From assembly GCA_006384855.1 (NCBI GenBank), contig VCJN01001306.1, positions 1-64,000 on the forward strand: DNA of 64,000 nt. The letters run 5' to 3'. A program made the position numbers and the translations under genes. This DNA is from Tetraselmis striata (Eukaryota; Chlorophyta; Chlorodendrophyceae; Chlorodendrales; Chlorodendraceae). How positions within the stretch are numbered: position 1 is the first letter of the stretch; each line of letters begins with the position of its first letter. Shown here piece after piece: positions 14,757 to 46,595 of this stretch. Under the pieces are notes generated by a model. It was not told the DNA's origin and ran no database searches. It saw only the letters and a program-made list of their open reading frames with translations.

Positions 14757-15816
14757 GTGTCAGCTTACTCTATGCCGACTCGGACCCGAGCCTCAGCCTC
14801 CCGAGACGCTACACCTTCCCCACCCCGCGACAGCAGGATGCCCCCTCGCCCTGTACCGGGAGACGCCTTAGTGGACGACGCCCCGGGCGGCGCCACGGCG
14901 GCATCTGTCGCGGAATTGGAAAAACGCCTGACGGCCCAAGCGGAAGCCCTGGAGAAGCGGTTGGCCGGGCAGTTTGAGGCTGCTACGGCTGCCTTGCTCG
15001 CTCGACTCGCCCCCCCCACTAACCCGCTTCCTCCCGACGGTACCCAGCCAGCCAACCCCGCGGGCACGCCTGCGCCCGAGGGTGGTGAGTTAGGAGCGCA
15101 AGAGCCCCTTCCTGCTGAGCTAGACGCACCCGACAACGAGCTCGAGTACGTCGACTTTGCCTACTACGGCCGAGTCATCCCCCCCGGTCTGGAGCGCCCC
15201 CCGCGCGACGTCGACGAGCCCCGCTTGTGGACCCTGACCGACGACACCGCCCGCGCCCTCGCGGAGAAGCGGAGTCAGGCAGCGTACGACGAATACATGC
15301 ACCTAGGCTGCTATGCCTTCTTCAGTAGCTGCGCCAACGAGGCGATGCGCGGCGCTCTGGAGTCGCTTTCGACCGAGTCTGCTACGCCGGCAAGCAAGGC
15401 TGCGGCCCTTGCCGAGCTCCGCGCCTTCTACCGCACCCACTTGGCGACGGAGGAGGCCACCCGTTCCCGGTTGGGCTACCTCCAGCTCGCCAAGAATGGG
15501 CCAACGGCTACAGAGGCGGACCGTGTTTTCGCCGAGCTCGCCCACGCAAAGTTCTGCACCCCACGGCGCATCGCCGTGTCCGGGCAACTCGACCAACTCC
15601 GCCGAGCGTTCGACGACAAGACCCTCGAGATCAGCCTTTCCGCAGCGGGCAAGGCCCGTGCCGCGGCCGCGTTCGCCAAGGCTACCCCCGACAAGCCCCC
15701 CCCCCCCCACAGAGTCCGCCGAGAGGCGCAAGCAACGCGAGCAAGCCGCTGCGGCGCGGAAGGCCGCAGCGACATCCGCAGCGTCTGACAAGGCCAAGGC
15801 CAAGGTCACCAAGTGA
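14757..15816 (+). CDS. DIRS ORF1 (Gag-like)
   Basis: About 350 residues. A Pro/Ala-rich N-terminus with a short coiled coil (VAELEKRLTAQAEALEKRL), a central helical domain (about residues 120-280) and a basic Lys/Ala-rich tail ending KAKVTK. The frame changes by one base in the C-run at about 15697-15707: the upstream frame stops at 15788, while the tail with KRKQREQ-like basic residues continues in the next frame to 15816. No zinc knuckle is present. It should bind element RNA. Position and composition fit DIRS ORF1; sequence identity to a known family was not tested. Confidence 0.75.
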
Positions 15817-15820
15817 CGGT

Positions 15821-17405
15821 GTGACCCGCCGCGCCGACTCATGTACGCCTACCTCCCTCTACATGCGACACCGCGTGCGGAGAAGATGGCGCGACTGGGA
15901 AAGCATCGGCGCGAGCGGGCAAGTCTTGAGTTGGATCCGCCAAGGGGTCCGGATACGCTTCAAGCACGGGCGACGCCCTCGCCCCTACAACCACGGCGTC
16001 TCTATGCGCGACGCCACTCAGGCACAACTGGACTTCATGGCTACAGAACTGCCCCGCTTCGAGGCGATTGGCGCGTGGGAGCGAGGACACTGCAACAAGT
16101 GTGTATCCGGAATGTTTCTGGTCCCCAAGCCCGGCACCAACAAATGGCGCCTCATCATCGACCTACGGGAGCTCAACAAATGGTGCAAGACTTTCACGAT
16201 GTCCTGCGAAACGCTCAAGCACCTGCGGCACCTGGCGCGCGCGGGCGATTGGTTCGTGTCGATGGACCTGGCCGATGGCTACTACGCCCTTGGGATTCGG
16301 GAGGAGGACCGCGACTTCTTTACCGTGAACTACCGAGGGGAGCTGTGGCGACTTGCGTGCCTACCGATGGGTTGGACAGGCTCGTCGTACTACTGCAAGT
16401 TGACGGCGGCCTTTACAGACTACCTGCGGACGCCCCTGAAGCGGCGCGACCCAGCGTCGCCTCCCACGGCCCCGCCCGTCCAAGCCTACTCGCCGTTTCC
16501 TGCGCAACACCCGCTGGCGGGGCGAGCGGCTCCTACCCTATATGGACGACTTCCTTTTCCTCGCGGACTCCCGCGAGGCAGCCCTGGAGCTACGCGGCCG
16601 GTTAAACACCTTACTGGACCGCCTGGGCCTGCTGCGCAACCCCAACAAGGGAGTCTGGGAGCCCACCCAGGTCGGCCCTCACCTGGGCCTGATCATCGAC
16701 CTGAAGCGCGGCGAGTTCCGCGCCCCCGAGGAGAAGCTCATCGCGCTAGCCACGGCCGCCCGTTCTCTCCTTGGCCGCGCAGCCTCCAACAAGCGCTGGC
16801 TCCCAGCTCGGCAGCTGGCGTCCTTTGCGGGCAAGGCGCAGTTCCTGTACTTGGCAGTTACGCCGGCCCGTTTCTTTTTGCGGGAGCTGCACTGCGTCCT
16901 CGCAACCCGGCAGGGCTGGGGCGGGCGCGTCAAGATGACAAACCAGCTGCGCCGCGACCTGCAGTGGTGGACCCAGGTACCTGCGCAGCACAACGGTCGC
17001 TCTATGTACAAGCCTGTGGAGACCGCGTATCTGCACGCGGACTCCGGCTCGTATGGCTGGGGGGCTGTACTGAACAACAACAGCGCTTACCAGGCGCGCG
17101 GCTTCTGGTACGAGGACGACCGCTCGCATCACATCACGTGGAAGGAGCTTCGCGCGGTACGTCACGCGGTCGACTCGTTCCTGCCGCAGCTCCGAGGACG
17201 GCGCGTCTTGCTGCACGAGGACAACACGGCCGTAGTGGCAGCGCTGACCAACCTTACCTCTCGGTCGCCCGTCATGATGGAGGAGCTCCGCAAGCTGTGG
17301 CACCTCCTGGATATCCACGACATCTCCATCAGACCCCGGTACATCCAGTCTGCAGCCAACGTTTGGGCGGACCGACTCAGCAGGGAGCTGGACGACTCCG
17401 ACTGA
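15821..17405 (+). CDS. DIRS reverse transcriptase and RNase H
   Basis: RT: FLVPKPGTNKWRLIIDLREL, FVSMDLADGYYALGI, LACLPMGWTGSSYY, then after a frame change (between about 16440 and 16510) PYMDDFLFLADS with the catalytic YMDD. RNase H: LHADSGSYGWGAVLNN, LLHEDNTAVVAAL and IQSAANVWADRLSR. This is the RT/RH type of DIRS elements. The second half is one clean frame (16542-17405). The TGA at 17403-17405 lies just before the sequence QLSPRTFAYL, at a point where related proteins have Trp, so it is probably a TGG to TGA change that cuts the methyltransferase-like domain off the polyprotein. Confidence 0.88.
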
Positions 17406-17861
17406 CAGCTCAGTCCGCGGACATTCGCGTACCTGCAGCGCTTGTGGGGTCCGCACACCGTCGACAGATTTGCGTCGATGGAAAATACGCAACTTCCACG
17501 GTACAATTCCCGCTGGCGCGACCCGCATTGCGAAGCGGTGGATTCTCTCCATTTGCCGGACGAGTTCTGGCGCAGGGAACACAATTATTGCAATCCCCCG
17601 TGGGGTTTGTTGGACGATTTGGCGGACAAACTGCGACAGTCGGGCGCGGCCGCCACGGTCATCGCACCGCACTGGCCAGGACGGCGTTGGTACCAGATGC
17701 TGCAAGACCTCGCCACCGAGACGATTGTCTACCCGCCTACCCGCGACCTCTTCTTTCCTGGGCGGCGGGGAACGCGCGCGGGGGTCGGACTGCCCGGCTG
17801 GAGCGTCGTGGCCTTTCGACTGCCACGCCGGCATGGCTGCACCTCCGCCGTGGGTCGCTAG
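17406..17861 (+). CDS. DIRS methyltransferase-like domain (Dam family)
   Basis: Same frame as RNase H after the TGA at 17403-17405, about 150 residues. It contains WGPHTVDRFASMENTQLPRY, then HNYCNPPWGLLDDLADKL with an intact NPPW catalytic motif of N6-adenine methyltransferases, then ATVIAPHWPGRRWYQML. DIRS elements of several lineages carry a domain of this type between RNase H and recombinase. What it modifies is not known. It parallels the domain in the Ty3 element of this window, where the motif is NAPY. Confidence 0.8.
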   Translation, partial: QLSPRTFAYLQRLWGPHTVDRFASMENTQLPRYNSRWRDPHCEAVDSLHLPDEFWRREHNYCNPPWGLLDDLADKLRQSGAAATVIAPHWPGRRWYQMLQDLATETIVYPPTRDLFFPGRRGTRAGVGLPGWSVVAFRLPRRHGCTSAVGR

Positions 17862-17899
17862 GCCGGGCTATGGCCGTGCCGCCGTCGCTGCAGTAAAGT

Positions 17900-19078
17900 G
17901 TGCAGTACCCGGGCCGCCTGTCCCACACTCGACGCGCGCGCTACCGGCTTGCGGTGCGCTCCGACTATGAGGCGCCCTGGTCGGCATCAATGGCGGCCGA
18001 GCTCCGGTCTTTGTTGGGGACCGGAGACCTTGCTCTTTCTGCGGCGTCACTTTCAAGCGGCGCTCGGGTTGCTTGCGGGTTCGCTGGCGGCCGGCACCTA
18101 CCGCAACTACGACAGCGGCATGCGCTCTTTCGCTACTTTCTGCGAGCAGGAGGCTTACGCCCGCTGCAGGCTACTACGAGCACGATCGTCCGCTACACTG
18201 CATGGTTGGGCATGCAAGGTACCGTCGGCGCGGAGTCCCTTCAACAGTACTACTCGTCCATCAACAAGTACTTCCGCGACCATCAGCGCCAGCCTGCCGC
18301 CCTCGGCGAAATGGTGGCCGACGCGCGCCGCGGCCTGGCCATCCAGCAAGAGCGTCTTGCGGCGGAAGACGTCCGCGTCGCCCTGCCTGCGCCCATTGCG
18401 GCTGACCTCCTAAACACCGCGATTGGATTTCGGCAGACATTGGTGTGGAAACCCGCTAATATTGCGGACATCTGCGCTTTCAGAGCCGCGCTCGCGACGA
18501 TTACGGCGTACGTCTTCCTGTGCCGCGCGGAGTCCGGCGTTAGCTGCGAGACCGGTGATTTAGTGGTCGACCGGCCGTCCGGAAGCATTCTACTGTACGT
18601 CCGCAAACAGAAAGGCGACCAGCGTACGAGGGTTTCCGCTAAGCCCCTGATAAATCTGCCCATCGCCGCCGTTCCGGACTTCGCTGACCTGCTGGACTGG
18701 TACGCCGGCAGTCGCGACGCTTACTGCCGCCGTTTCTATGGCGCCAGCCCGCCGCCCAAGTTCTGGAGCATCTCCCCGCTGGAGTGTTCCGCCACTTGGT
18801 CGGTTTCAGCCACTCTTACCGAGTGGTTGCGGGAAGCCTACCTGGCGGCAGGCGCCCGACCTCCCACCGGTTTCAAGTGGACATCGCACAGTTTACGCAA
18901 GGGTGCCGCTTCCGCAGCAAGCTGCGTCGGCGTCCCCTTTCCGGCCATCAAACACATGGGTGATTGGTCGAAGAACAGCGAGGTGGTCACCGGGAAGTAC
19001 ATCGACCCGACCATGCGCCCGACTCCTGCGGCCTGGAGGTCCTTCGGTTGGCTCGTCCCCGTCCGGCCGCCGGCCTAA
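17900..19078 (+). CDS. DIRS tyrosine recombinase
   Basis: 392 residues. Catalytic signatures: an Arg in FLCRAESGVSC, the HxxR box HSLRKGAASAA, and the C-terminal HMGDWSKNSEVVTGKYID with the His/Trp and the nucleophile Tyr. The N-terminal part resembles a SAM-like DNA-binding domain (TIVRYTAWLGMQGTVGAESL). The enzyme should insert a circular DNA copy without TSD. The frame opens at a GTG at 17900, so the true start is unsure. It is the only ORF of the element without an evident break. Confidence 0.9.
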   Translation: MQYPGRLSHTRRARYRLAVRSDYEAPWSASMAAELRSLLGTGDLALSAASLSSGARVACGFAGGRHLPQLRQRHALFRYFLRAGGLRPLQATTSTIVRYTAWLGMQGTVGAESLQQYYSSINKYFRDHQRQPAALGEMVADARRGLAIQQERLAAEDVRVALPAPIAADLLNTAIGFRQTLVWKPANIADICAFRAALATITAYVFLCRAESGVSCETGDLVVDRPSGSILLYVRKQKGDQRTRVSAKPLINLPIAAVPDFADLLDWYAGSRDAYCRRFYGASPPPKFWSISPLECSATWSVSATLTEWLREAYLAAGARPPTGFKWTSHSLRKGAASAASCVGVPFPAIKHMGDWSKNSEVVTGKYIDPTMRPTPAAWRSFGWLVPVRPPA

Positions 19079-19109
19079 GCTTCCTGTGCTAGCCTTTGGC
19101 TTTCGTCTC

Positions 19110-19136
19110 TGGCAAACAGTGCATCCTTGGATAAAT
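19110..19136 (+). repeat. DIRS repeat B1
   Basis: 27 bp, TGGCAAACAGTGC.TCCTTGG, two mismatches to B2 at 19410-19436, directly joined to A2. Confidence 0.85.
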
Positions 19137-19312
19137 GGTCAGATGTAGTCATCTAAAGGTTTACAGTACATTAGCTATGTTGTACTGCACACGACCCCCG
19201 AGGTCGGCGCACGGACTAAGGCATGCCGGCCCGCACCAGCACTACGACCTGAGGGATCCACCCTCGGGCACAGGCACTCTCTGCTTTGCGCTCGCCTCAA
19301 CCGGCTCGCGCA
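19135..19312 (+). repeat. DIRS repeat A2
   Basis: 178-bp direct repeat of 14550-14727. Confidence 0.93.
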
Positions 19313-19409
19313 CCCACCCACCCTCAACCATCTTTTTGCGCTAAGTGACACCCAGGCCAAAGCCTGTGGTTCTTGTCTTAGCCTTCAATGTAAGCGAGCT
19401 GACATTCTT

Positions 19410-19436
19410 TGGCAAACAGTGCCTCCTTGGGTAAAT
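19410..19436 (+). repeat. DIRS repeat B2 (right end)
   Basis: 27 bp, match to 19110-19136. AT-rich simple repeat begins right after it. Confidence 0.85.
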
Positions 19437-21561
19437 ATTATATTATATATTTTATACATATATTATACATATATTATACATATACATATATCCTACGGGT
19501 GCCGGTACAAAATGCCTATAGTAATACATGAAAAATATGCTCGCGAGCAGTATTAAGGCTATGACAAGTTGATTTGTCGGTCCCGCTGCGTATTTCTCAC
19601 TCAGAAAGGAAGAAATGACACCAAGTGTTGACATCAAACGGCAGGTTTGCCGATTGACCGTGGAATGTGAAGCATATACTTGCACATTAGTCGGTGTCGA
19701 GTGTGATATTGTTTGTATTGCTAAGCATGATTTGGCAGCATGTGTGTGCTGGTAGAGTGCATATATATATTTGTATGGTTGTAGGGAATACATTTTTCAA
19801 AAAATCGGACGCCTCAGACGAGAACGCCGACTTCATGCGTGGCATGTATAGTCATTCGACAAGGCGCTCACCCCAGGGCCGCGGCCCGCCAGAAACATAG
19901 GATCATGGGTGTGACATGCCTAGCGGCACCACTCTGTCACCTCCATGTGGTGGGCGATGGTAGCCCCTAAGACCCGCCGTGCCCGGTTGGGTGCGGCACC
20001 GGGCTAATCGGAGTGGTCGGTTGCGGCATGTTGTCCTCGGACCCTACGACGACTGGGGAGCCCTACGGTGGGTTTTGTACTTGTACTCCCGGTAGCGCAT
20101 GTTGGCACCACCGATGGGCAGCATTCCGGCACCGGGCAGCACGGCGCACCCCGCGGATACCTAATCGGAGATAGAGCGTAGTATACATTTTCGTTGTACG
20201 TTATTTAGTACTCTAGAATAGTGTATCGTTTTTAAAGCGTATTTCTGGGTAATTTCGCTCGTGTGCTGCGTAGGAGAGCGCAAAAACGGCGTCTTGTCGG
20301 CCGCAACTGCGGACGGGCATTGCCCGTTCCGCTCACGGAAGGGGGCTATGCTCACGGCCTCATGCCCGAGCCGAACGGGCACTACCTGCCTTGGAAATAG
20401 GATAGGTCCATAGCCTATCTTATAGGGATGCTATACAAGCATTGAGCTAGAAATCAGGGCCTCCTGGCTCGGTGCCCCGCCATGTGCCCCCGATTCAAGA
20501 AACCGTCCGGTCTTGGACTCGCGTTTTCGGAAATACACGACTCCCGGCTTCAACCCCTTCCGCGGGGGCGCCTGCGGTAGCTCTCTACTTACCGATCGAA
20601 TGAGCGCTAGTAGAGGTCCATACGCAGGGCGGACGCCCGCTCGCGGAAAGTTTGCGGCCAGTCTCGGTCGATGCCGGCCCAATGGGGACGACCGACCTGG
20701 ATTATCCGCGCTCTCAACCCCCCCCCCCCCCTCCCCCGCATAAGCATCCCATGTTACCCGCAGCTTACCATTTAGCCCGCTGCAAATGCACCGTCCCATG
20801 GCCTAGCTCTTAGGGGTGCGGTAGCGCCCATGAGTGGTCCATATGCGGTGGTCGATGCGCGGTGCCCCATCTCCCCCCGTATTTTCGAGCCGAGATTAGA
20901 TAAACGGGCTGAACGGGGGGGCGGTCAACCACCACGCGTAGATGAGTCACAGCGTACGGGTACATTACCGGGTACCGATTTTTTAATGTCGCGATCCCAT
21001 ACAGGAACTCGCGGATATTACGGGTTTCGGCACTGCCGCGCCACCACTCTGCACCTCCCCACCGACACCATCCCAAGCACCAACGAGGGGCCGACCGCAG
21101 GCCATCCCCGACCACAACCTTCACTCCGCCGCGACCATATACCCCTAAGGCAGGTTTGACCGGGCGCTGACCGGCCGCGAGCGCCCCCGAGCGGTGAACT
21201 GCCCCATTCCCGCCTAGCGAGTTGCTAGATTGCTGTCGCGTCACCCACCAACCGCTGCACCATCCGCCCAGCTCCTTGCTAGAGACAAACCTGCAAGCAT
21301 CTTGACCGATGTCCGCATGTAAACGGTTCGCAAGCGTTCCATAGGGTGTTCTCCGGGTGTTATTAGGTGCGCTTGCAACGCTATCTCGTGTGCGCGTTGG
21401 CATTGCGTCGTTAATGGCGTCCCCTGATGGCGATGTGTCGTGCACTGCGCAGATATGGCGCTCATCGGCGGCTCATGGTGCCTCGAGTGCATATTTACAC
21501 AACAGCGGCTGGACCCATGCCCGGATATACACAACACCAGCATGACCCATGCCTTCTTCTT
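19437..21561. other. No recognisable gene
   Basis: AT-rich TATACATATA-type repeat to about 19490, then about 2 kb without a gene I can support. A C-run of 14 lies at 20718-20731. Open frames at 20431-20799 (minus) and 20810-21445 (minus) have biased composition and no motif. Confidence 0.45.
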
Positions 21562-23713
21562 CTAGGCGCGGTCACGATGTGCTGCACCCCTGACGGTGAG
21601 CACGCTCACATGCTGAGCGCGCTGCCTCATGGTAGTGGCCACCCACTGACCGCGCTTGTTGCTCCGGTGGCGTCCGAAGAAGTGGGCCCACTTATGCAGG
21701 GCCTCAAGCATCCTGCACCATTTCCCCGGGCTGCCATGCCGGCGGATCATCTGCCCGAGGTGGACGGCGCTCATGTGGATGTACACCGTGACGTCCTTCT
21801 GGCTCGCCACTTGGAGGAATGCGGTAAGGAACTCGTTCCCCTGAGCCTCCACCTCAGCAACGTGAGCCAGCATAGCAGCCGGATCCTTGTCATCGCATCT
21901 GTGCGTGGCAATGTAGTTGAGGCAGAAGAACACCTCCCACACCTTGATAGCGTCCTGATAGCTCCGCATGCCCCTGCCATGCCACAGAGGAATTGCCCGA
22001 CATAGGATGTGCACAAAGTTGTCTAGCAACACTTGGCAGGTATCCCCCGGCCAAAACTCTGCCGACATATCGATCTTCCTATCTAGTGCATGTCTTGGAC
22101 TGCCCGGGCTTGTTCTCGGTGAGCTTCACCTTGAGCTACTTCTCAATCCACAGGACCAAATGTTGCAGCTTGGCGGCGTCGCAATGCTTTGACACCGTGA
22201 ACTTGAAGGTCTGCGGGATGACACGCATCATGAGGTGTAGTATGCCCACCACGTAGTCTAGGATGTGGGCGAGCTTGATGTACGGGCTCCTCCCCTGCAC
22301 ATGCCCCAATGCAGCTGCTGCTGAAGCAGCCTCCTCTGGGCGCTCGCCCTTCGTGGTGAGCTCAGGCGGGCTGTCGATGTTGACATTCCTGTTTGTGCGC
22401 TCACTAGACCGGCAGCGGCTGCCCATGACGGTATGGGTGAGCTTCTCCAGCTTATCTATGTCGCGCATCCTGCTGCCGGCCTCTGTCCACTCCGACAAGG
22501 TGAGAGCTAGCCGTAGCCGTAGCTAGGCAGTAGCTAGGGTAGCCATGGTACCTGCGTGACTAGGTAGCGTAGCCGTAGCAATAGCCAAATAGTAGCACAA
22601 AAACCGTAACCAGGGGAGGCAGTGCCGTGCGGCCACTGTAACGGCACGTAGAGCCCAGTGGCGGGGTCCTTGGTGTGCGACAGCAAGATGCGCAGCCGCT
22701 TCCACGCCCGGCTGGTGCTCGCAGTGTCTGTAAATATCTTGACGGCCTTCTCCCGCCAATGCTTCATTGGCACTGCCAATGCGTTCTCCTCCAACTGCAT
22801 ATTGTGCCCCAAGTCGTCCAACATGGCCTGTAGCACGTGAGGGTACATCGCAAAGAAGAACCTAAGCACCCAGCGCGGCATGTTTGTAGTCGAGTGGTGT
22901 TCTTTGCCTGCCGGACTAACATGGTTACATGCCGGTCCGGCCTCGATACCACCGCTAGCAGCGCCGCCGCCGCTGCCGCCGCCATAATCATCGCTGCCAC
23001 CGCCCTTCGCCGCTGCCGCCGCCGCCTCTAGCTCCTCGCCCGTCCCACCCAGCTTGTAGAACTCTTGCCACTTGGTGCCAATCTGGTCCACCAGGAGTGA
23101 CTCGAGTTCCTCCCGCCGCTTCCTGATATATAAGTCGATGATGTCCTTTGTCACGTCTGCACCCTTCCGCTTGATAAGCGAAGGCCGGTAGGGCGGTTCC
23201 GCCGAGCCCGCTGCGGCTCGTCGATGTCGCTCGCCCCGCTGCTCTCGTCGCCGATTTCAGCCTCCTCCTCCTGCTCCTCGTCGTCGTCCTCCACCTCCAT
23301 CTTTCGCTTGAGGAAGTTGTACTTTGTGTGGTAGAGCTTGCTCGCCGCATCCCGTGCTTTCTCCCGGTATTGTGCAGCAGCAGCCTCGGCAGCAGCAAGC
23401 CGGGACCGCAGCTCCCGCTCTATGACCGCTCGATGCCCCTCCCCCGCATCCTTTTGCTCTGCCGCTTCCGCGATTAGCCTCCCGACCGTGTCGGTCAACG
23501 TGTCGCGCGCTCCGACGTGACAGTCGCGAGCTGTGTCGCGGTGCGCTGCCGGGTTGTGTATCCTGCTGTAGTCGCGGGCGGCTGTGGCATGCCGCCAGAC
23601 CCGAATGGCGCGAGCCCACCCGCGGCCGCCTCGTCAGCCGCCGCGGCCGTCGCTCCATAGCAGCCGTGCTTAGGGGTGGTGGAAGCTGTGTTGTGAATCG
23701 AGAAGGGCGACAC
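21562..23713 (-). pseudogene. Decayed intron-containing gene of unknown, possibly transposon-derived family
   Basis: Reading down the minus strand: a Gly/Ala/Thr-rich start (from 23713), a coiled-coil segment (LRSRLAAAEAAAAQYREKAR) ending in an acidic run, a segment starting TKDIIDLYIRKRREELESLL with a Gly-rich insert, MPRWVLRFFFAMYPHVLQAM and an Arg-rich helix, a likely GT-AG intron (about 22604-22500), a middle exon (22498-22136), then DNFVHILCRAIPLWHGRGMR and VTVYIHMSAVHLGQMIRRHG followed by LEALHKWAHFFGRHRSNKRG. The last pattern (His-rich strand, RHGS, W..F..RRSN) resembles C-termini of uncharacterised transposon-associated proteins of other eukaryotes; this is from memory, not a search. 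Frames shift at about 23497 and 23152, and stops occur near 22136, so it looks decayed. Confidence 0.4.
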
Positions 23714-36388: not shown

Positions 36389-36393
36389 AGGTA
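36389..36393. repeat. Target-site duplication AGGTA (left, copia)
   Basis: AGGTA precedes the left LTR start and recurs at 44864-44868 after the right LTR. The length fits copia integrase. Confidence 0.7.
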
Positions 36394-36829
36394 TGCTGAA
36401 GTAACTCAGTCATGATCTGTACGAATGTACTAAAATGGCACAGTAGTCAGTGCAGAATAAATATCGGCGTGCCACTTCAGGGCAGGACCTGAACTGACAC
36501 ATAAAAAATATGTAGCAATTACATATTACACAGACATTTATGCTACAGTCAAGCAGGAAACTAATGACAATTGTTCAACAAAGGCACAAGCAGAGAATGA
36601 TACAGCCTTGTTGCAGCAAAATCCCATGAGCTTACTTGTGCTGTGATACAGCCTTAGAATCTACAACCCTCCAGCAATTGGAGCGCTGAGAGCATGACAT
36701 GCAGCAATAGCCAGTAACTAATATTGCTAAAATCACTGGCATTGCAATCACTTTTTTGTTTCCCACCAAACCTTGCAGTCTCTACTGTCACTGGGCAATC
36801 ACACCTGTTGTTAGTCTGAAACTTCATTA
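36394..36829 (+). repeat. 5' LTR of the copia element
   Basis: About 436 bp, matching 44426-44863 with some 20 differences including short indels, so older than the Ty3 insertion. Ends are imperfect inverted repeats; the exact 3' boundary (CTTCA or three bases later) is uncertain. Confidence 0.85.
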
Positions 36830-37190
36830 GGTTAGGGCCCCTCTCACTGAGTGATTCCTTCTTCAGACACCTTCTCTGCCACCTGTGATCTGCACACACA
36901 TTCATTTGCTCACCTGTGAGCTTTGTGCCACATGTATCACCAACTGCCTTCTTCAACTGTGCTCTACACGACACTCACCTGCTCGTCGACTCGACGCAGC
37001 TCTCGGCTCGACACAGCTGTCGCAGCCTTGGTCCCCTGTTGGCATGGCAACATTGCTGCCCACATCAGCTCTCCCCTTGATACCTGCTGCTGTAGTTATG
37101 CCTGCTACAGCTCCAACCAGCTACAGTTACATCTCTCCGTGCTTCAACTAGTTATTTCTATCGTTCCAGCTGCTCAACTCTCCTTTCAGC

Positions 37191-37847
37191 ATGCCTGCCG
37201 ACGAGGACTCCTCGGTGGTCCCTCTTCGCATCAAAGACTTCAAACGACTGCCTCTTCACAATGCCAAGAAGGCCACTTGCACTTTGGTCTGGTGGCTGCA
37301 AGCCAAGGCAGAAGTCAGTTCCAAGCCTGGCTTTGATGAGTTCTGGACTACTGATACCAGTCCACAATATCATGCTACCTTCGTGTCTATCCTCAACCAG
37401 ATCGTTCTGGACAAGCAAGCCAGGACCAAGCGTCTCCGCTTCACCAACAGCGCCGACCCCGTGCGTGGTCGTAAAGCGATCGACGCGCTTCCCGCCACCT
37501 TTCTACAGCCACCTCGCTTTCGTGCTCAGACCTGTAATGAGGCGCTATGCATGCGAATGAAGACAACCGAGGACCTCACGGATTACGAGAACCGTCTTAA
37601 CCTGGTGCGTATGGAGCTGGAGTGGATGGACAAGGCGCCTGATGAGTCAACGCTAATCGTCGCGTTCATCGAGGGACTTCGCGACGAGTTCCGAACCGCT
37701 GCGCAGGTGCTTTCTACGGGAGCTGTCACCGCTACCACCCTTGATGCCGCTGTCCAACATGTCAGGGACTCAATGCTTACAATGGACCCGGAGCCCGCTG
37801 ATCAGCCTACCTCAGCATTTGCAGCCGACGACTCTTCAAGCTGCTGA
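37191..37847 (+). CDS. Copia Gag (capsid part)
   Basis: 218 residues from ATG 37191 to TGA 37847. A helical capsid-like protein with the copia Gag features YENRLNLVRMELEWM, LIVAFIEGLRDEFR and a C-terminal helix. It should assemble the particle. The zinc knuckle lies in the next frame, so a frame change separates the two. Both LTR elements in the window start with a Gag of this type, but sequences differ. Confidence 0.75.
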   Translation: MPADEDSSVVPLRIKDFKRLPLHNAKKATCTLVWWLQAKAEVSSKPGFDEFWTTDTSPQYHATFVSILNQIVLDKQARTKRLRFTNSADPVRGRKAIDALPATFLQPPRFRAQTCNEALCMRMKTTEDLTDYENRLNLVRMELEWMDKAPDESTLIVAFIEGLRDEFRTAAQVLSTGAVTATTLDAAVQHVRDSMLTMDPEPADQPTSAFAADDSSSC

Positions 37848-37855
37848 GCACCAAC

Positions 37856-38521
37856 ATGGAGAGCAATGCCCCGCCACCGCCGTCACGCCCACGTGGAGAC
37901 GTGCCCATCTGCAAGTACTGTGACAAGTGTGGCCACACCATGGACAAGTGTTTCAAGAGGCAGCGCGACATCAAGCGTAGGGAGCGCCCTGGAGCAAGCG
38001 GCACTGCTGTTGTTGCTGGCACCAATTCTACTACACCTGCCCCCGAGCCCTCAGCTGGTGGCACCGTTCCATGGGCCATGTTAGCCCAGGTCGGGAAGCC
38101 ATTCAAGTCTACATACGAAGACAACAGCTTTGCCACTGCTGATACCTTCTTTGACACCTCCACCTCCGAGTCATCCGGCGAGTGCTCCGACACCAATGAC
38201 GACATCTGCGACGACATGATTGATGAGCGCCACCTAAAACCCGCCGCACCTGTGCAGCCCGCCCTTTCTCTTCACCTATCGCCACACACCAAATCTAAGC
38301 CATCCATCGCCACGGCTACTTTGGCGGTTGAGATGAACGGTGTCAATGCCATGGCCGCTCAGCTCCGCGCCGACACTGCTAGCGTCGCCCATCAACTTAC
38401 GTGTTCCGCATGGTTGCCCGAGTGCGCGCCAGGTATCGTCACTATCATGCGGACATCGTGGCTGCTCAGAAGGCCTTCGACAAGGCCGACCTTGCGTGTG
38501 ACCTTGCAGCCACTGCCGTGA
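37856..38521 (+). CDS. Copia nucleocapsid-like zinc knuckle and linker
   Basis: Contains CKYCDKCGHTMDKC, a CCHC knuckle in the retroviral spacing, followed by basic KRQRDIKRRERPG. A long polar linker rich in Ser, Thr and Asp follows. It is displaced by one frame from the capsid ORF and should bind element RNA. Confidence 0.75.
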   Translation: MESNAPPPPSRPRGDVPICKYCDKCGHTMDKCFKRQRDIKRRERPGASGTAVVAGTNSTTPAPEPSAGGTVPWAMLAQVGKPFKSTYEDNSFATADTFFDTSTSESSGECSDTNDDICDDMIDERHLKPAAPVQPALSLHLSPHTKSKPSIATATLAVEMNGVNAMAAQLRADTASVAHQLTCSAWLPECAPGIVTIMRTSWLLRRPSTRPTLRVTLQPLP

Positions 38522-39541
38522 TAGAGGCGGGTGCAGACGCACAACAAATGTGGAAGGAGGATGAGGACCTCATACGCACCTCATTCGTCGTACCTCGCCC
38601 TCTGCGATTGAGCAGGCCGAGGCACCTCTTCCTCCGTCCATGGTCTTCCTCCAGCAGCCGCTTCCCATCCAGCGTCCACTTCGTCGCCCTGCGGATCCCT
38701 TTCAGGTGTCCCCGGCACAGGCTGCCGCTCGTCAGCGCAGCTACAATGTGGAGATGGCGGCCTTCCAGCGGCAAGTTGAACTGCGGGTCCTTGCTATGCC
38801 TATCAACAATCGAGGCTCCCGTTACCGCATCCTCTATGTCGCAGACACCGCCTCGCCAGATGACAACGACACGTCCTCTAACGCTGACCTCAATGCCTAC
38901 CAACCCCGCATCGACCTGACTCACGTGGCGCTGGAGCGCAACAACACGCACGTGCCTCGTGGCACACGGCTTCGAGATTCCACATACCAGCGTCGCAACC
39001 GCCGTCGTATGCGCTCCGCTCGCCACCGCGCCGCTACTACCTGTCTACGTGATGCTGCATTCACTGCTGCAATTGCGGCTCACCTTCAGGATCTGCCGGA
39101 CTCCACCTCTACCTCCACCAACCGCTCCCCTCATCAACTGCATCTGTCGCCGGGCTGATGGCAGAATTGCATGCGGCAAGTGGCGCTGTGTTCCTGTCCA
39201 TATTCCTGCCCAGCATGAGTGGCACGTAGCCTTTCAGGCGGAGCTCAGCAACTTAGCCGCTGTTGACGACAGCCGACGCATCCCTGACCTCTCTGCGAGT
39301 CCTATTCGAGACATTCGGTTGCACTTTCAGTGGGCCACTCACTGTGATTTGCATGGTAACGCTCTTCAGAGGCGGCTTGTCACGCATGGTTTCCACAACA
39401 TACCCTGCATCCACTACAACAATGAGACTGATTTGATGCCGCTCTGTCGCACTTCTGAGCACGCTGGAACATCACAAGTCACCACAAATCCCACATCCAG
39501 TCCTTATACGGATTACGCACTCATCGCCACTGAGGACACAG
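38401..39541 (+). pseudogene. Copia insert region of unknown function, upstream of the methyltransferase
   Basis: Three overlapping open frames that look like one broken coding region: a helical segment (VAAQKAFDKADLACDLAATA), an Arg-rich segment (YQRRNRRRMRSARHRAA) and a segment ADGRIACGKWRCVPVHIPAQ. None matches a domain I know. Lying between the zinc knuckle and the methyltransferase, it may be the N-terminal part of the acquired methyltransferase or part of Gag. Confidence 0.4.
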
Positions 39542-40480
39542 CTCTACACGCCGCTGAATCTGGACCGGCACCACTCCCGTCCAGCCTTTCACCTCCACAT
39601 CCAGCCTTCCGCGTCTGCTTTTCAACACCGGCGCCAACTTGGTATCCTACTTCTTGGTTCTGGCGCTGTGCCAGGGTTCATCAGTCACATTGCAGCGGCC
39701 GGTCCGCCTATTGGCATGCTTACCTTGGTGGACTCAGACGAGACTGCACGTGACGCCATGGACATGGAGCTCCTGAAGCTGTCCTCTGCATCACCTGACA
39801 CGCTTCCACCGTCTGCAGTGCAAGCATCGCATACGTGGCTTCCTCAAGATATCATGTCCATCGCCGGCGCGCATCTCGCCCAACTTCCGTATGTCGATCT
39901 AGTCATCGCTACTCCTCCATGCAATCCCTTCTCTACTGCCGGCCTGCAACATGGACTTCATGACCCGGACGCCAAGCCCTTCTATGCTGAGTGTGACATC
40001 ATCGCCCAGCTCGCCGAACTACAACGTGGGGTAATGAACGATATCATTGAAAATGTACCTGGAGCGGCTCGATTCCCCGAACTGCGCGCTGCTCTTGGAG
40101 ATCCATTCCTTGCCCGTGCTCACGAACTCGGCTCTTCGGCTCGTCGGAATACCTTTCTATGGACCAACATCCTTGACACCTATACCCGTCAGCAACACTA
40201 TCAGTCCTCCCTTCGCTGTCCGCCACCGGTCAGTGACCTCCTCAAGCAGTATGGCTTCTCACCTGCGTGGACGGCGCCACCACATTTGCAAGACAGCATC
40301 TTCCCGAAGTTTGTCTCTCGACGCGGCAGTTATGCATACCGTATCATCCATCCTGATGGCCATGGGCGCGGCATGCTCAGACTCTGCGGGGAGTGGACTG
40401 AACCATGCTGTGATATTCGGGCTGTCGCGTTGGGTATCCCGTCAGCATGCTGCAACATCCTAACTTGTCAGAAGACACTC
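39542..40480 (+). CDS. C5-cytosine DNA methyltransferase domain in copia Pol
   Basis: About 300 residues. Motif I, the S-adenosylmethionine loop: LGILLLGSGAVPGFISHIAA (about 39639-39698). Motif II acidic TLVDSDETARDAM. Motif IV: YVDLVIATPPCNPFSTAG with catalytic Cys at 39920-39922. Motif VI: DIIENVPGAAR with the Glu at about 40049. Motif VIII-like: GSSARRNTFLWTN (about 40130). A target-recognition-like region follows (FVSRRGSYAYRI ... LCGEWTEPCCDIRAVALGIP), whose end resembles the last motif of DNMT3-type enzymes. The PPCN form and the ENV and R-x-R motifs together make this confident. It would transfer methyl groups to cytosine in DNA. The frame starts after a break near 39541 and gives way to the protease frame near 40450. 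Confidence 0.82.
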
Positions 40481-41094
40481 GGCGCCGTCTGCAGGGCGCC
40501 TGCGTGGACTCCGACGTCGGTCGATGGCTTGTGTCTGCCATTACTTCATCTGTCGTCCACTCAGCACACATCAGCATTCGGTCATTTTCAGACATGTGGG
40601 TGTTTGACACTGCCGCGACTACACACATGACCGCGCAACTTTTGGACTTGGCTGAGTACCGCACCATTCCACGCCGCTGGATCGATGGCCTCGGCGCATA
40701 CGCAGTCGGGGAAGGCAACGTTCACCTCTACCTGCAGGATAACACAGGGACACCAGTACGCATCAATCTTCCGCACGGCCTCCATGTCCCCGACCTTGCT
40801 GCCAAGACCAACAATGACATACGGCGGCTTTTCAGCAGCCGCCAAGCATGGGATGCCAATCCCGGTCTCGAGATTATCTTCACAGCTACCAACCCTCGGC
40901 TGCTATTGCCCGACATAACCGTTGTTCCCATCCTGACACACAGGCGCCTACTAACTTTTTCCTCTCACATCATCAAAAGCCCAAGCCTCGCCGCCCTATC
41001 CCCATGCCTCCATCGACTGCTCATCAACTCTGGCATGCTCGTCTCGGGCACATCAGCGGGCGTGGTATGGCATCACTTACCCGCAGCGGCGTGA
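40447..41094 (+). CDS. Copia protease
   Basis: SDMWVFDTAATTHMTAQ is the copia protease active-site region (W-x-x-D-[ST]-[GA]-A-T-x-H-M-T). The middle residue is Ala (DTAAT) where DTGAT or DSGAT is usual, which may impair activity. Downstream strands (NVHLYLQDNTGTPVRINLPH, GLHVPDLA) fit. It should process Gag-Pol. Confidence 0.8.
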   Translation: MLQHPNLSEDTRRRLQGACVDSDVGRWLVSAITSSVVHSAHISIRSFSDMWVFDTAATTHMTAQLLDLAEYRTIPRRWIDGLGAYAVGEGNVHLYLQDNTGTPVRINLPHGLHVPDLAAKTNNDIRRLFSSRQAWDANPGLEIIFTATNPRLLLPDITVVPILTHRRLLTFSSHIIKSPSLAALSPCLHRLLINSGMLVSGTSAGVVWHHLPAAA

Positions 41095-42155
41095 GCATCC
41101 TTCCTGCCGGACCCTGCTCTGCCGTTCTGCCGGACGTGCGCCCTCATCAAGTCAACTGTTGCCCCCCGTCCTAGAGGCCTGCACGCCAAGCCTGCACAGC
41201 CATTTCAACGCACTGGCTGGGATTTCTGGCAGAATCACGTCCCATCTCCACAGGGCAATGTTTACTCATGCGGAGCCATCGACTACACCACTTCAGTCGT
41301 GGCGCTCTACTTCTGCCGTTCTCGCGCGGCCTCCACTAATTGCTTCAAAGCGCACCGCACCATCGCTTAGAAACACTACGCCTTGACAACGACACCGCAT
41401 TTCGTACCGCTGAATTCACATTCGCAACGGATGAATCGTAAACCAGTCGGGAGTACGCCGCGCCCTACATTCAATTCCAGAACGGTTTGATTGAGCGCAC
41501 TTGCTATACCCTAGCTACCTGGGCCCGGTGCATGCTGGACTACGCTGGCCTTGGTGCCGAATTTCGGGAATTTGCCATGGCTACCGCTGTGCTTATACAT
41601 AATCGCACCTTCCGTCGTGGTATCAGCGACATCCCACTGCTTCGCCTCACTGGCGTTACACCATGCCTCTCCTACCTTGGGACATTTGGCTGCCCAGCCT
41701 ATGTGCACGTGCCCCGCGCTAATCGCACCAAGATTGCAGCATCCTCACGTGAAGGCATCTTCGTGGGATACTCGCCTGATTCACCAGCGTGGTCGGTATG
41801 GATGCCTGACACTCGACTAGTGGTGTCCAGTCGCAGTGTTGCCTTTAACGAGTCTGATCGACTCGGACGATTTGATTCAGAGCTGCCTGACGAGTGGCCT
41901 GTAGCCACTCAGGAGGGGCGTGACAGCTCTTCCTCAGCAACTACAGGAGATGCACCACTTTGTCGACAGAGGGAGCCAACTGAGGAGTGGCACTCACCTC
42001 AGGAGGGGCAGCCTATCCATCACTCGGACAGCGACTCTTCTGGTGATGATGACGACAACCTGCAGTGCCGATCGCCCCTCAACAACAACGACACACACCG
42101 CCACCGATGGAACCTGCTCAGCAAGCTCCCCTCCAGCCTACACCTAGTCCGATAA
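41000..42155 (+). CDS. Copia pre-integrase and integrase (damaged core)
   Basis: The pre-integrase motif HQLWHARLGHISGRGMASL starts near 41010. The integrase core between about 41160 and 41450 is badly broken. The C-terminal half is clear: NGLIERTCYTLATWARCMLD, LIHNRTFRRG, then FGCPAYVHVPRANRTKIAAS and GIFVGYSPDSPAWSVWMPD, the typical copia integrase tail. Frames change at about 41090 and 41480. Confidence 0.85.
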
Positions 42156-42360
42156 CCCCAGCTGCACCATCAGTTTTTTCTGGAGCCCCAACACTCGACA
42201 ATTGATCCCGTTGTTAGCCAGCCCATTCCGAGCCAGCCCGTTCCGACCTCAACATCCACCACCGCAGCTGACCCGAGCAGCCAGTCTGAGGCATGCGCCG
42301 GTAATGCACCCAACCAGCAGTGTGTGTCGTCACCCACCGACCAGCCTGACACACTGATCA

Positions 42361-43590
42361 GTGATACCACTAGCCAATAACAATTGGAACCAGCTCCACG
42401 ACCGCCGCAGCATCACACCAAATGTCAGAATTCCGGCTTCAGACAATGTGTTCCCCTCACACGGATATCAGCCGCCACCTGCACTGGTAGCAGGCGAATC
42501 CCCGGGTGACCCGCAGATCTGCAGGGAGGCTCTCTCGCCTCACCTCATGCTGCCGAATGGCAACTCGCTATCCAAGCCGAATATGATTCCCTCATCAGCC
42601 GCGTCACATGGGAGCTCGTCACTCTTCCTGCAGGTAGAAAGACAGTCAAATGCAAGTGGGTTTTCAAAACTAAGCACCATGCTGATGGCAGCATTGCACG
42701 GTACCAGGCGCGCCTGCGTGCACAGGGGTTTTCCCAAATTCAAGGGCTGGACTTCAGGGAGACCTACGCACCTACCGTCAAGTTCACCACTCTCCGAGTC
42801 ATCTTCAGCCTTGTTGCTCACCTTGGCCTCCATTGCGAGCAAACTGATGTTGATTGTGCTTTCCTCTATGCAAACCTTGAGGAGGATATCTATATGGATG
42901 AGCCAGATGGTTTAGTTCAGCGCGGCAAGGAAGGAACGCGCCTGGTTTGCCTTCTCAAGGAGGCAATATATGGGCTCAAGCAGGCACCCCGCAACTGGTG
43001 GATTCTACTCTTCAACTTCTTGCGCAGCCAAGGCTGTATCCAACTCAGAACCGACCCTGGCGCGTATATCGCAGCACTGATAACACTGGTTACGAGATAT
43101 TCAGCATCATTGTTGTCTATGTCGACGACACCCTGATCTGCAGCACGTCACCCACATGGATTGCCGACTTCAAACATGCTCTCGGCGCCACCTTCGACAT
43201 CGAGGATCTCGGGACTTGCAGATGGCTGCTGGGCATGGCCGTTGAACGCAACCTGACAGCACGCACCATCACCACTCATCCGAGTCAGTATATTAGGGAC
43301 TTACTTCAGCGCTACGGGATGGACAAATGCAAGCCCACCGCACTGCCAACATCCGCCAACGGCCCCTAGACATCAATATGGCTTCACACTACCGCAGTCT
43401 CGTTGGTGCATTACTCTATGCATCAGTTGCTACACGACCAGACATCACCCAGACACTAAACCGATTGTGTTGCTTTATCTGCACTCCCACTCGTGCGCAT
43501 CTAGAGGACGCCAGAACCTGCCTGCGGTACACAGGGATTTCTGGGAGTAGTAATTGCTCTCCAGCATTGGCGACATTATATGGAAGGGTG
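42361..43590 (+). CDS. Copia reverse transcriptase
   Basis: In frame from about 42547: CKWVFKTKHHADGSIARYQA, RETYAPTVKFTTLR, TDVDCAFLYANLEEDIYM, LLKEAIYGLKQAPRNW, then the catalytic IIVVYVDDTLICS (YVDD) in the neighbouring frame, LGTCRWLLGM and GALLYASVATRPDIT. Frame changes lie near 43050 and 43365. It is a typical Ty1/copia RT. Confidence 0.9.
43526..43533. repeat. 8-bp duplication GGTACACA at the RNase H insertion (left)
   Basis: Matches 43840-43847. It brackets the foreign segment inserted into the copia RNase H frame. Confidence 0.85.
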
Positions 43591-43847
43591 TAAACATTTT
43601 ACTGTCATCACTGAACATACTACTCTGCGTCATCTGCCAACCCAGGAAAAGCTCAGCAGAAAACATGCTGGCTGTTCCCACCATACATGGACAATATGGA
43701 TATCGTATATAAAAAGGGATCTCAAAATATCTCAGATGCATTGAGTAGACGATCAGATCTGAAAGATCTGAAAGCATCGTTAGATGCGTACTATATGCAG
43801 ACCTTCGAGGCGGATCTGGAGCACATCACTGAATGGCAAGGTACACA
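43534..43847 (+). mobile_element. 314-bp Ty3/gypsy RNase H fragment inserted into copia
   Basis: Translated in its own frames it reads GVVIALQHWRHYMEGCKHF, VITEHTTLRHLPTQEKLSR and MDNMDIVYKKGSQNISDALS, RNase H and linker of a Ty3/gypsy Pol. That does not belong in copia and is clearly different from the Ty3 element in this window. It is bounded by GGTACACA on both sides. Removing 314 bp rejoins the copia frames on either side in phase, which shows that it went into a coding RNase H. There are no terminal repeats of its own. Confidence 0.85.
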
Positions 43848-44436
43848 TGAGCAAGGTCTCACCTTTGGCGGAAGCACACTCAATCTTTGTGGGTTCAGTG
43901 ACGCTAACTACCCGACCACTTCAAGTAGCTGGAAAGCCACCAGCGGCTACGGCTTCTTCCTGTGCGGCGCAGCTGTCAGTTATGCCTCCAAACTGCAGCC
44001 CCTAGTAACCCTCTCCACAGCTGAGGCTGAATACCTTGCGCTCAGCTTGGCTACTCATGAGGCCAAGTTCCTGCGTCTAATGATGGGGGAGTTAGGGTTC
44101 TCGCAGACACTGCCAACTCCCATTGCAGAAGACAACCAGGCATGCATTGCTATTGCAACAACGGACAGCAAATCCAGCCGCACCAAACACCTGGATATTC
44201 GCCTGCACTTTGTGCGCGATGCCCACAGGGATGGCATCATCAAGATCTACTACGAGCCCAACAGTTCTATGCTTGCTGATATCTTCACCAAGCCGGTCAA
44301 CAATCCTCAGTTTGAGGCGCTCTTGACTAGAATTATGAATGTGGTGAAAAAGGCTCTGATCACTTTGCAATTATTACATATTTACTTCTGCATGTATCCT
44401 CATCCATGTCCTCAGTCAGGAGGGGTGTTGAAGTAA
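43840..44436 (+). CDS. Copia RNase H
   Basis: HEQGLTFGGSTLNLCGFSDA, ATSGYGFFLCGAAVSYASK, VTLSTAEAEYLALSLATHEA, DNQACIAIATT and RTKHLDIRLHFVRDA are the standard copia RNase H motifs, ending MLADIFTKPV. The frame is intact to TAA 44436 apart from the insertion just upstream. It degrades the RNA strand during reverse transcription. Confidence 0.9.
   Translation, partial: GTHEQGLTFGGSTLNLCGFSDANYPTTSSSWKATSGYGFFLCGAAVSYASKLQPLVTLSTAEAEYLALSLATHEAKFLRLMMGELGFSQTLPTPIAEDNQACIAIATTDSKSSRTKHLDIRLHFVRDAHRDGIIKIYYEPNSSMLADIFTKPVNNPQFEALLTRIMNVVKKALITLQLLHIYFCMYPHPCPQSGGVLK
44417..44425 (+). promoter_or_regulatory. Polypurine tract of the copia element
   Basis: CAGGAGGGG immediately before the TGTTGAAG start of the right LTR. 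It supports placing the LTR boundary at 44426. Confidence 0.75.
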
Positions 44437-44863
44437 CTGGGTCATGATCTGTACGAATGAGCTAAAATGGCACAGTAGTCAGTGCAGAATAAATATCGGC
44501 GTGCCCCTTCAGGGCAGGACCTGAACTGACACATAGCAAAATATATAGCAATTATATATTCCACAGACATTTATGCTACAGTCAAGCAGGAAACTAATGA
44601 CAATTGTTCAACAAAAAAGGCACAAGCGGAGAATGATACAGCCTTGTTGCAGCAAATCCATGAGCTTACTTGTGCTGTGACACAGCCTTAGAATCTACAA
44701 CCCTCCAGCAATTGGAGTGCTGAGAGCATGACATGCAGCAATAGCCAGTAACTAATATTGCTAGAATCACCGACATCGTAATCACTTTTTTGTTTCCCAC
44801 CAAACCGTGCAGTCTCTACTGTCACTGTGCAATCACACCTGTTGTTAGTCTGAAACTTCATAA
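44426..44863 (+). repeat. 3' LTR of the copia element
   Basis: About 438 bp, direct repeat of 36394-36829. The end of the copia RNase H ORF overlaps its first bases. Confidence 0.85.
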
Positions 44864-44868
44864 AGGTA
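44864..44868. repeat. Target-site duplication AGGTA (right, copia)
   Basis: Matches 36389-36393. Confidence 0.7.
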
Positions 44869-45061: not shown

Positions 45062-46595
45062 TTACGCGGCGATGCGCTCCTCCGCCGCCTGACTGATGCG
45101 GTCCTCCATGACAGGCCTCATGTGGCGGATGAGGCCCTGCACGGGCCAGGCAGCGGCATCGCCCAGAGCGCAAATAGTGTGCCCCTCGATCTGCTTCGTG
45201 ATCTCCCAGAGCATGTCGATCTCCTCCATGCGGGCGTCGCCCTTCTTCATGCGGAGCATGATGTCGTGCAGCCAGGTGGTGCCCTCGCGGCAGGGGGTGC
45301 ACTGCCCGCACGACTCGTGCTTGTAGAAGTACGACAGGCGCGCGATGGCGTCGATCGGGTCGGTGGTCTTGTCCATCACGATGACGGCGGCCGTGCCCAG
45401 GCCGGACTGCGCCTCCTTCAGGGCGTCAAAGTCCATGAGCACGTCGTCGCAGACGGACTTGGGTATCATGGGCACCGAGGAGCCGCCGGGGATGATGGCC
45501 AGCAGGTTGTCCCACCCGCCTCGCACTCCGCCGGCGTGCTTCTCAATCAGCTCCCGCAGCGGGACAGACATCTCCTCCTCCACGGTGCAGGGCGTGTTCA
45601 CGTGCCCGCTGATGCAGAACAGCTTGGTGCCGTGGTTGTTCTGGCGGCCAAAGGACGAGAACCACTCGGGGCCACGGCGCAGGATGGTGGGCGACACGGC
45701 GACGGTCTCCACGTTGGTCACGGTGGAGGGGCAGCCGTAGAGGCCCACGCCGGCGGGGAACGGCGGCTTGAGGCGCGGCTTGCCCTGCTTGCCCTCCAGG
45801 GACTCGATCAGGGCGGTCTCCTCGCCGCAGATGTAGGCGCCGGCGCCCCAGTGGACGTTGACGTCAAAGTCCTTGCCGCTGCCGCACGCATTCTTGCCCT
45901 GCAGGCAATAGAAGTCCGCATCTCAATCATGCAACTATGGCAATAACCTCAATTACGCATGTCTCCCGCGTTTGGATCTCACAGACAGAGACACGCGTAT
46001 ATGTGTATGTATGTATGTATGTATGTATGTCTGAAAGACAGAGGGATGGAGGGAGAGGGGTCGCGGCGCACCAGGAAGCCCTTCTTGTAGGCCTCGTCCA
46101 CCGCCTTCATGAGCGCGAGGCGCTCGTTCACAAACTCGCCGCGGATGTAGATGTACGCCGCGCGGGCGCGCATGGCGGTGCCGGCGATGAGGCAGCCCTC
46201 CACCAGCTTGTGGGGGTCGTGGCGCATGATCTCGCGGTCCTTGCAGGTGCCTGGCTCGGACTCGTCGGCGTTCACCACCAGGTATGAGGGCCGGCCGTCG
46301 TTCACCTGGGCGGGCAAGGGGCCGACGGGGCCTCAGAAAAGGGTTCGATAGGGTTCGGAAAGCGTTGGATCACGCAGGTATGCTGCCAACCGCTGCCGTC
46401 CGCGGCCCACCTTGGGCATGAAGCTCCACTTCAGGCCCGAGGGGAAGCCGGCGCCGCCGCGGCCGCGCAGGCCAGACTTCTTCATCTGGTCCACGATCCA
46501 GTCCGGCCCCATCTCCACCAGCTGCTTGGTGTTGTACCAGTCGCCGCGCTTCATGGCACCCTACACGCGCCACATGGCGGGCGGTACAGTCAGGA

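Follow-up and report, generated by a model that had tools for sequence, protein, structure and literature searches.

Cytosine methylation is the normal means of silencing transposons, and cytosine-C5 DNA methyltransferases usually belong to the host cell; a transposon equipped with such an enzyme thus reverses the familiar arms race. Retrotransposons of this kind are already known. In the text available to us, de Mendoza (2018; PMC5890265) describes DNA methyltransferases (DNMTs) in three carriers, SymbioLINE, SymbioDIRS and KnitGypsy, reports de novo CG methylation by the SymbioDIRS enzymes in yeast, and finds the Copia elements of Symbiodinium devoid of any DNMT domain. As far as its accessible text goes, a 2025 article (PMC12344493) places some DNMT3 members in LTR Copia and DIRS elements in a single clause credited to the 2018 paper, and a 2023 survey reports no DNMT3 in the green algae of MMETSP. 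Here, we describe a Ty1/copia retrotransposon with a C5-cytosine methyltransferase domain in the chlorophyte Tetraselmis striata. It lies at positions 36394-44863 of a 64,000-nucleotide stretch (contig VCJN01001306.1, assembly GCA_006384855.1), hereafter the window. The copy itself is decayed, but it belongs to a numerous Ty1/copia set that has been active recently and has the methyltransferase in its Gag-Pol frame. A sequence-only reading of the window had proposed such an element and named carriers from Klebsormidium and Symbiodinium; the 2018 paper, in its available part, gives gypsy for the former and long interspersed nuclear elements (LINE) and DIRS for the latter. Beyond the clause in PMC12344493, our search found no account of a copia-borne DNMT in green algae, most subscription journals and all supplements being outside that search, and the portions seen of PMC5890265, PMC12344493, PMC9998398, PMC12477816 and PMC9033089 hold no description of a chlorophyte copia carrier.

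The methyltransferase domain of the window element

The hallmarks of Ty1/copia are present at 36394-44863: two direct long terminal repeats (LTRs), a 5-bp duplication, a reverse transcriptase (RT) of the RVT_2 family and an integrase located before it. The profile search against the DNA methylase family that the sequence-only reading had advised was significant, the frame at 39542-40480 matching PF00145 above the Pfam cut-off (E=3.8e-6, 27 bits, cut-off 22); together with the LTRs and the copia Pol domains, this bears out a Ty1/copia element with a C5 methyltransferase. A profile of relatives was matched at positions 4-275 by one window frame (312.8 bits) and at positions 262-301 by a second one (27.4 bits), which places motif X just past 40480 in another frame. 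The extent initially given, 39542-40480, therefore stands for the core of the domain and fails at both ends: the first ~105 bases (39542-39646) are linker, and the domain, putatively of DNMT3 type, spans 39647-40542 on the plus strand according to Pfam, the relatives' profile, motifs and predicted fold. It comprises a motif I-like stretch (39647-39703), motif IV, PPCNPFSTAG, with the catalytic Cys (39914-39943), motif VI with ENV (40043-40078), a motif VIII-like stretch with its Arg (40118-40168) and a motif X-like stretch (40447-40542), the motif names being those we take to apply. All are in order, motifs I, IV, VI and VIII in the 39542-40480 frame and motif X in the other frame. A chance match of motifs is ruled out by the PF00145 score, the many matching rows in the genome (see below) and the predicted DNMT fold.

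The domain is flanked, as had been proposed, by a zinc knuckle CX2CX4HX4C (37910-37951, plus strand, in another frame than gag) and a degenerate copia protease motif, DTAATTHM (40594-40629, plus strand), at the place where intact sisters have D[ST]GA[ST]. The motif X part and the protease are frame-shifted relative to the core, and gag, integrase and RT are shifted too; with so many parts changing frame, the window copy is dead.

Sister copies and recent activity

With the window methyltransferase domain as query, the 224-Mb genome gave at least 130 rows matching at E<=0.001, from 452 candidates of which 127 were scored, and a single place may account for more than one row. At least 25 of the rows lie in open frames of 1900 amino acids or more. 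We read 19 loci of ~10 kb, mainly picked for long frames, and 10 of ~4 kb. The longest single frame reaches 2483 amino acids in A1, 2299 in A2, 2147 in A3, 2164 in B and 2162 in C, these being the clades and subgroups described below. In all but one of the 19 larger loci, the two LTRs are 98.4-100% alike (over a partial LTR in L015), the sole exception being L011, of the window's own subfamily, at 83.4%. Flanking 5-bp duplications were seen by eye in several sister copies.

The intact sister copies that the sequence-only reading had suggested looking for do exist and have the same Gag-methyltransferase-protease order; with the significant profile match, neither of the two outcomes that it had named as refuting applies. 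In five intact polyproteins (L009, L012, L017, L023 and L027), a single frame runs from the Gag knuckle through the methyltransferase to protease, integrase and RT, the knuckle and the D[ST]GA[ST] motif being found by pattern in all five, and the order recurs in P0005, a 2514-amino-acid copia polyprotein from an ENA contig. A Pfam scan of these six polyproteins recovered the methyltransferase, gag_pre-integrase, SH3 and RVT_2 (PF07727, 7e-44 to 1e-68) in all of them, Pol_BBD in five, rve in five and zf-CCHC in three; PF00145 scored 27-44 bits in L009, L012, L023, L027 and P0005, and only 18.5 bits, under the cut-off, in L017, a member of A3. Knuckle and protease are 634-889 residues apart in the methyltransferase elements versus 192 in L056, a copia element that lacks the domain. 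Two Tetraselmis striata (Tetstr1) gene models in EukProt closely match L012, P0003 with 98.3% identity over 1171 residues and P0004 with 98.8% over 1169.

Enzyme type and proposed role

A DNMT3-type enzyme is indicated by the tree, by the predicted structure (a DNMT fold) and by the profile of its gypsy-borne relatives. Motif IV reads PPCxPF, PPCQPW, PCCEPW or PDCQPF in the copia rows and WECQDLS in those of gypsy II. Since the SPCN-type motif IV of DNMT3 is found in neither the copia nor the gypsy II rows, the copia enzyme is, judging by its sequence, DNMT3-like and not a strict DNMT3 member. Of the 35 copia rows of T. striata, 34 have the catalytic Cys and 29 a literal ENV; the row without the Cys is a tail fragment.

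Other cytosine methyltransferases occur in the same genome. Two other pieces match HhaI and, weakly, other cytosine methyltransferases and DNMT1. We also read a lone 325-amino-acid C5 methyltransferase frame (L060; G000 C1993:450-1500); similar-scoring lone frames occur at six places (C1993, C776, C1647, C2337, C355 and C1455), and three frames of 341 amino acids lie on C1230.

In the copia elements, the methyltransferase has the same position and frame in the intact copies, is conserved, belongs to the DNMT fold class and travels with recently active elements. We infer that its likeliest role is methylation of the element's own cDNA. The enzyme would be made within the Gag-Pol polyprotein, cut out by the adjacent protease following the usual copia life cycle, and packed with RT into the virus-like particle. 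It is placed where the copia polyprotein would bring it into the cDNA-making particle. There it would act on freshly synthesised double-stranded cDNA, which would enter the nucleus already methylated; the outcome could be to delay or tune the host response to new insertions, to mark the element DNA or to shield it from nuclease. A retrotransposon with such an enzyme may chemically mark its own DNA. As a whole, a copia-borne, particle-packed DNMT3-type methyltransferase acting on new cDNA is the best explanation, and we hold it to be reasonably probable.

Clades and relatives in gypsy and LINE elements

The copia methyltransferases fall into three divergent clades named A, B and C, the window subfamily and P0005 belonging to A. 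In a 45-row tree, hand-picked from 81 rows, the copia rows group together (99/96), and the transposon rows as a whole form one clade (100/100) versus 12 bacterial-type enzymes and the lone 325-amino-acid enzyme of the genome. A quick tree of 79 rows gave the copia clade a Shimodaira-Hasegawa-like approximate likelihood ratio test (SH-aLRT) value of 91, with the fragment L033_m_804 misplaced. The trees leave out L001-L008 (mostly re-read or broken copies), P0003, frames scoring under 25 bits and the short pieces P0009, P0013, P0024, P0030, P0035 and P0037-P0039. The same three clades appear in a 26-row RT tree, in which L056 joins A versus B plus C (100/98) under midpoint rooting only; whether the methyltransferase was gained before or after the split from the copia elements that lack it hinges on that root.

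Related domains were found in other retrotransposon classes. Two gypsy Pol proteins, P0007 and P0008, combine RNase H, integrase and a PHD finger with a methyltransferase that was recognised by Pfam in P0007 and through homology in P0008; the PHD finger precedes the integrase in P0007 and follows it in P0008. Gypsy RNase H or integrase parts accompany the methyltransferase in P0015 and P0020 (precomputed Pfam) and, from reading the sequence, in P0017 and in P0028 of Dunaliella salina. A third homologue search yielded 32 proteins, comprising T. striata fragments, four ordinary methyltransferases (P0040-P0043) and many proteins with WECQDLS, a motif found in 21 rows of the tree set, P0008 included. 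PCIF1 is a cap adenosine methyltransferase, and a PCIF1_WW match occurs, with RVT_1, a DNMT3-like methyltransferase and RNase H, in one frame of 3505 amino acids on C2687 (G000, 15300-23300; L059 and L064, read in two pieces). From its layout, this frame appears to be a LINE-type element, and its type of methyltransferase is found at four places in the genome. In the 45-row tree it branches beside gypsy I plus copia (96/91). At the level of sequence, one methyltransferase lineage is thus common to copia, gypsy and LINE elements and, being present in gypsy-type and LINE-type elements too, behaves as a reusable retrotransposon module.

The tree suggests that the copia enzyme was taken from gypsy, a point that it does not settle, as gypsy I plus II in one clade is not rejected (p-AU 0.07, approximately unbiased test). 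More broadly, the DNMT3-type methyltransferase could be a stock module of green-algal retrotransposons, its lineage moving between copia, gypsy and LINE elements that methylate their own cDNA before integration. This wider proposal is tentative; if true, such de novo 5-methylcytosine activity would reside mainly in the parasites and not in the host, in algae from whose transcriptomes free-standing DNMT3 is reported to be absent. Alternatively, each retrotransposon class could have captured related host DNMT3 genes independently, with no transfer between classes, which is a real though less than probable option. Host-gene capture is the origin that the 2018 paper, as far as available, proposes for Symbiodinium and Klebsormidium (PMC5890265), and the p-AU value above leaves room for it. 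Two further features of the trees count in its favour, namely that support for the transposon rows without DNMT3A is only 83/53 and that native algal DNMT3 are not among the rows. Independent captures are, however, opposed by the single copia clade and by the grouping of LINE, gypsy I and copia to the exclusion of both DNMT3A and gypsy II (98/90). The survey result for MMETSP green algae, within the limits of the text seen, likewise leaves no obvious recent donor.

A viral origin was rejected: a scan of IMG/VR with profile A1 gave seven loci with short matches, of which L039-L042 and L045 fell with bacterial enzymes outside the transposon clade, L043 and L044 scoring too low for the quick tree. 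So was a bacterial donor, the 10 bacterial loci being 31-47% identical over short stretches and all those treed (nine in the 79-row tree, eight of these in the 45-row tree; L053 in neither) lying outside the transposon clade.

Constraint, enzyme-dead copies and alternative roles

The ratio of nonsynonymous to synonymous substitution rates (dN/dS) of the methyltransferase, pooled within clades, is 0.29 in A2, 0.55 in A3, 0.46 in B and 0.16 in C, A1 being uninformative; the linker gave 0.57-0.97 and the integrase 0.08-0.47, all from non-independent pairs and small counts. High values for gag (A3, C) and RT (C) are probably inflated by frame-shifted copies. Between clades, synonymous sites are saturated, and the methyltransferase dN (0.42-0.83, six pairs) is near that of the integrase and below those of gag and linker wherever measured.

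A short derivative of clade C keeps gag and half of the methyltransferase: in a separate search, 41 of 127 rows end at residue 200-202, with 58-72% identity. Two copies read, L057 and L058 (G000 C427:321500-328500 and C1912:278000-285000), have single frames of 1235 and 1237 amino acids, Leu in place of the catalytic Cys, QNC for ENV, and LTR pairs 99.8% and 98.0% alike. Because they have also lost the protease and YVDD motifs, these enzyme-dead copies probably rely on others, and the derivative is probably mobilised by full-length relatives.

Several observations weigh against an active role of the enzyme. The dN/dS of the methyltransferase in A3 and B is, on few substitutions, not far from that of the linker (0.93 and 0.70). 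Motif I is weak, clade B has PCC instead of PPC, and P0031, a copia-like fragment, is without the catalytic Cys. Copia elements lacking the methyltransferase, represented by the intact 1561-amino-acid frame of L056 (G000 C2281:7200-13600; one copy read), are numerous in this genome, which means that copia elements can thrive there without the enzyme. The observed/expected CpG ratio is no lower in methyltransferase elements (0.75-0.96, seven copies; window 0.79) than in the frame lacking the domain (0.80). CpG depletion as a trace of self-methylation is accordingly unsupported, the two kinds of elements not being separated, and an excess of CpG transitions, which make up 4 of the 26 LTR differences of the window pair and 3 of the 67 of L011, is too weak for use. 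The elements without methyltransferase also occur on other contigs such as C1776, C805 and C440, often several per contig, a clustering that might correspond to centromeres.

Part of this evidence would suit a passenger or spacer, captured once and kept open only since a closed frame would interrupt the polyprotein, its enzymatic role being small or nil: the moderate dN/dS in A3 and B, the near-identical LTRs of short clade-C copies deprived of the catalytic Cys and Glu, and the success of elements without the domain. Against it, alignment A1 shows no variation in the catalytic Cys, in ENV or in the Arg of motif VIII between clades that are ~33% identical, the linker between knuckle and methyltransferase is far less constrained between clades, and both enzyme-dead copies are those that probably depend on others. 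We therefore consider a passenger unlikely. Methylation of RNA (the element's own genomic RNA or tRNA) in the manner of DNMT2 appears more unlikely still. The enzyme would share the particle with RNA, PPCxPF resembles DNMT2 and bacterial enzymes, and the window sequence alone as query has DNMT2 as its best PDB match (E=0.015). This kinship holds only for the single-sequence query, however; profile A1 gave a tie between DNMT3A (8e-7) and DNMT2 (9e-7) in which the DNMT3A match extends to motif VIII, and the gypsy-relative profile, the structure and the tree (which has no DNMT2) favour DNMT3. A one-off insertion of a methyltransferase fragment into a single copia copy is ruled out for practical purposes by the number of matched rows and by the domain order that intact members of three clades share with one another and with P0005.

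Recent open-frame copies, copia elements lacking the methyltransferase and an enzyme-dead derivative thus coexist in one genome as natural controls for the role of the enzyme, which also bear on whether green-algal methylation depends on parasites.

Layout of the element and other features of the window

All parts of the copia element are on the plus strand. The AGGTA target-site duplication was read at 36389-36393 and 44864-44868, and alignment of the LTR pair delimits the 5' LTR (36394-36829) and the 3' LTR (44426-44863), with 26 differences in 443 aligned columns, the alignment overrunning the LTR ends by ~10 columns. Directly after the 5' LTR lies a candidate primer-binding site, GGTTAGGG (36830-36845), and before the 3' LTR a polypurine tract, AGGAGGGG (44418-44425). 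The gag frame (37191-37844) matches PF14223 (E=0.0053) and PF03732 (E=0.012), both under the Pfam cut-offs. From the protease onward, we found a Pol_BBD match (40597-40800, E=4.1e-5, slightly under the cut-off), GAG-pre-integrase and integrase motifs recognised by eye over two frames (41031-41537), an SH3-like retroviral polymerase domain (41652-41858, PF25597, E=5.8e-23), the RVT_2 region in two frames (42648-43354; PF07727, E=6.7e-12 on 43106-43354, the first part by eye) and an RNase H-like region ending in LADIFTK (43888-44292), seen by eye where Pfam gave no match. The Gag-protease-integrase-RT order is therefore present in pieces in the window, with RNase H placed by motif only.

Just downstream, on the minus strand, a gene part with NADH_4Fe-4S and SLBB domains (45065-45748) presumably encodes a complex I 51-kDa/NuoF-like protein. 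The window also contains a fragmented Ty3/gypsy element with capsid, aspartyl protease, RNase H and integrase (8225-13495, minus strand) and, on the plus strand, long frames with weak RVT_1 matches (2357-5209 and 15821-17893), perhaps the remains of non-LTR retrotransposons.

Comparison with known systems

With the carriers of de Mendoza (2018), the T. striata elements share a DNMT domain inside a retrotransposon frame, many copies and moderate constraint within clades. The closest in kind, KnitGypsy-Dnmt3 of Klebsormidium nitens, is also an LTR element with a DNMT3-related domain in its polyprotein, conserved catalytic residues and several copies (PMC5890265, available text). By that description, it is a Ty3/gypsy element of a charophyte with the domain in Pol, whereas ours is a Ty1/copia element of a chlorophyte with the domain between knuckle and protease. 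SymbioDIRS-Dnmt3 and SymbioLINE-Dnmt are retrotransposon-borne too, but belong to DIRS and LINE elements of dinoflagellates, and SymbioLINE-Dnmt, as described there, has its methyltransferase in an upstream open reading frame, unlike the T. striata LINE, where it lies between RT and RNase H. The "LTR Copia" clause of PMC12344493, in the text seen, names no chlorophyte carrier and no architecture, and the 2018 paper gives gypsy for the streptophyte. In the gypsy proteins P0007 and P0008 the methyltransferase stands between RNase H and integrase and not, as in copia, between knuckle and protease; the partial P0015, P0017, P0020 and P0028 are related transposon methyltransferases with one side of the domain visible. 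The catalytic domains of mammalian DNMT3A and DNMT3B are ~16% identical to the copia enzyme and have SPCNDLS where copia has PPCxPF or PCCEPW; no ADD or PWWP was reported by Pfam in the polyproteins scanned. DNMT-bearing retrotransposons were thus already known from LINE, DIRS and gypsy elements in 2018; new here are the position of the methyltransferase before the protease, the chlorophyte host, the recent activity and, as read from the sequences, one lineage in copia, gypsy and LINE elements.
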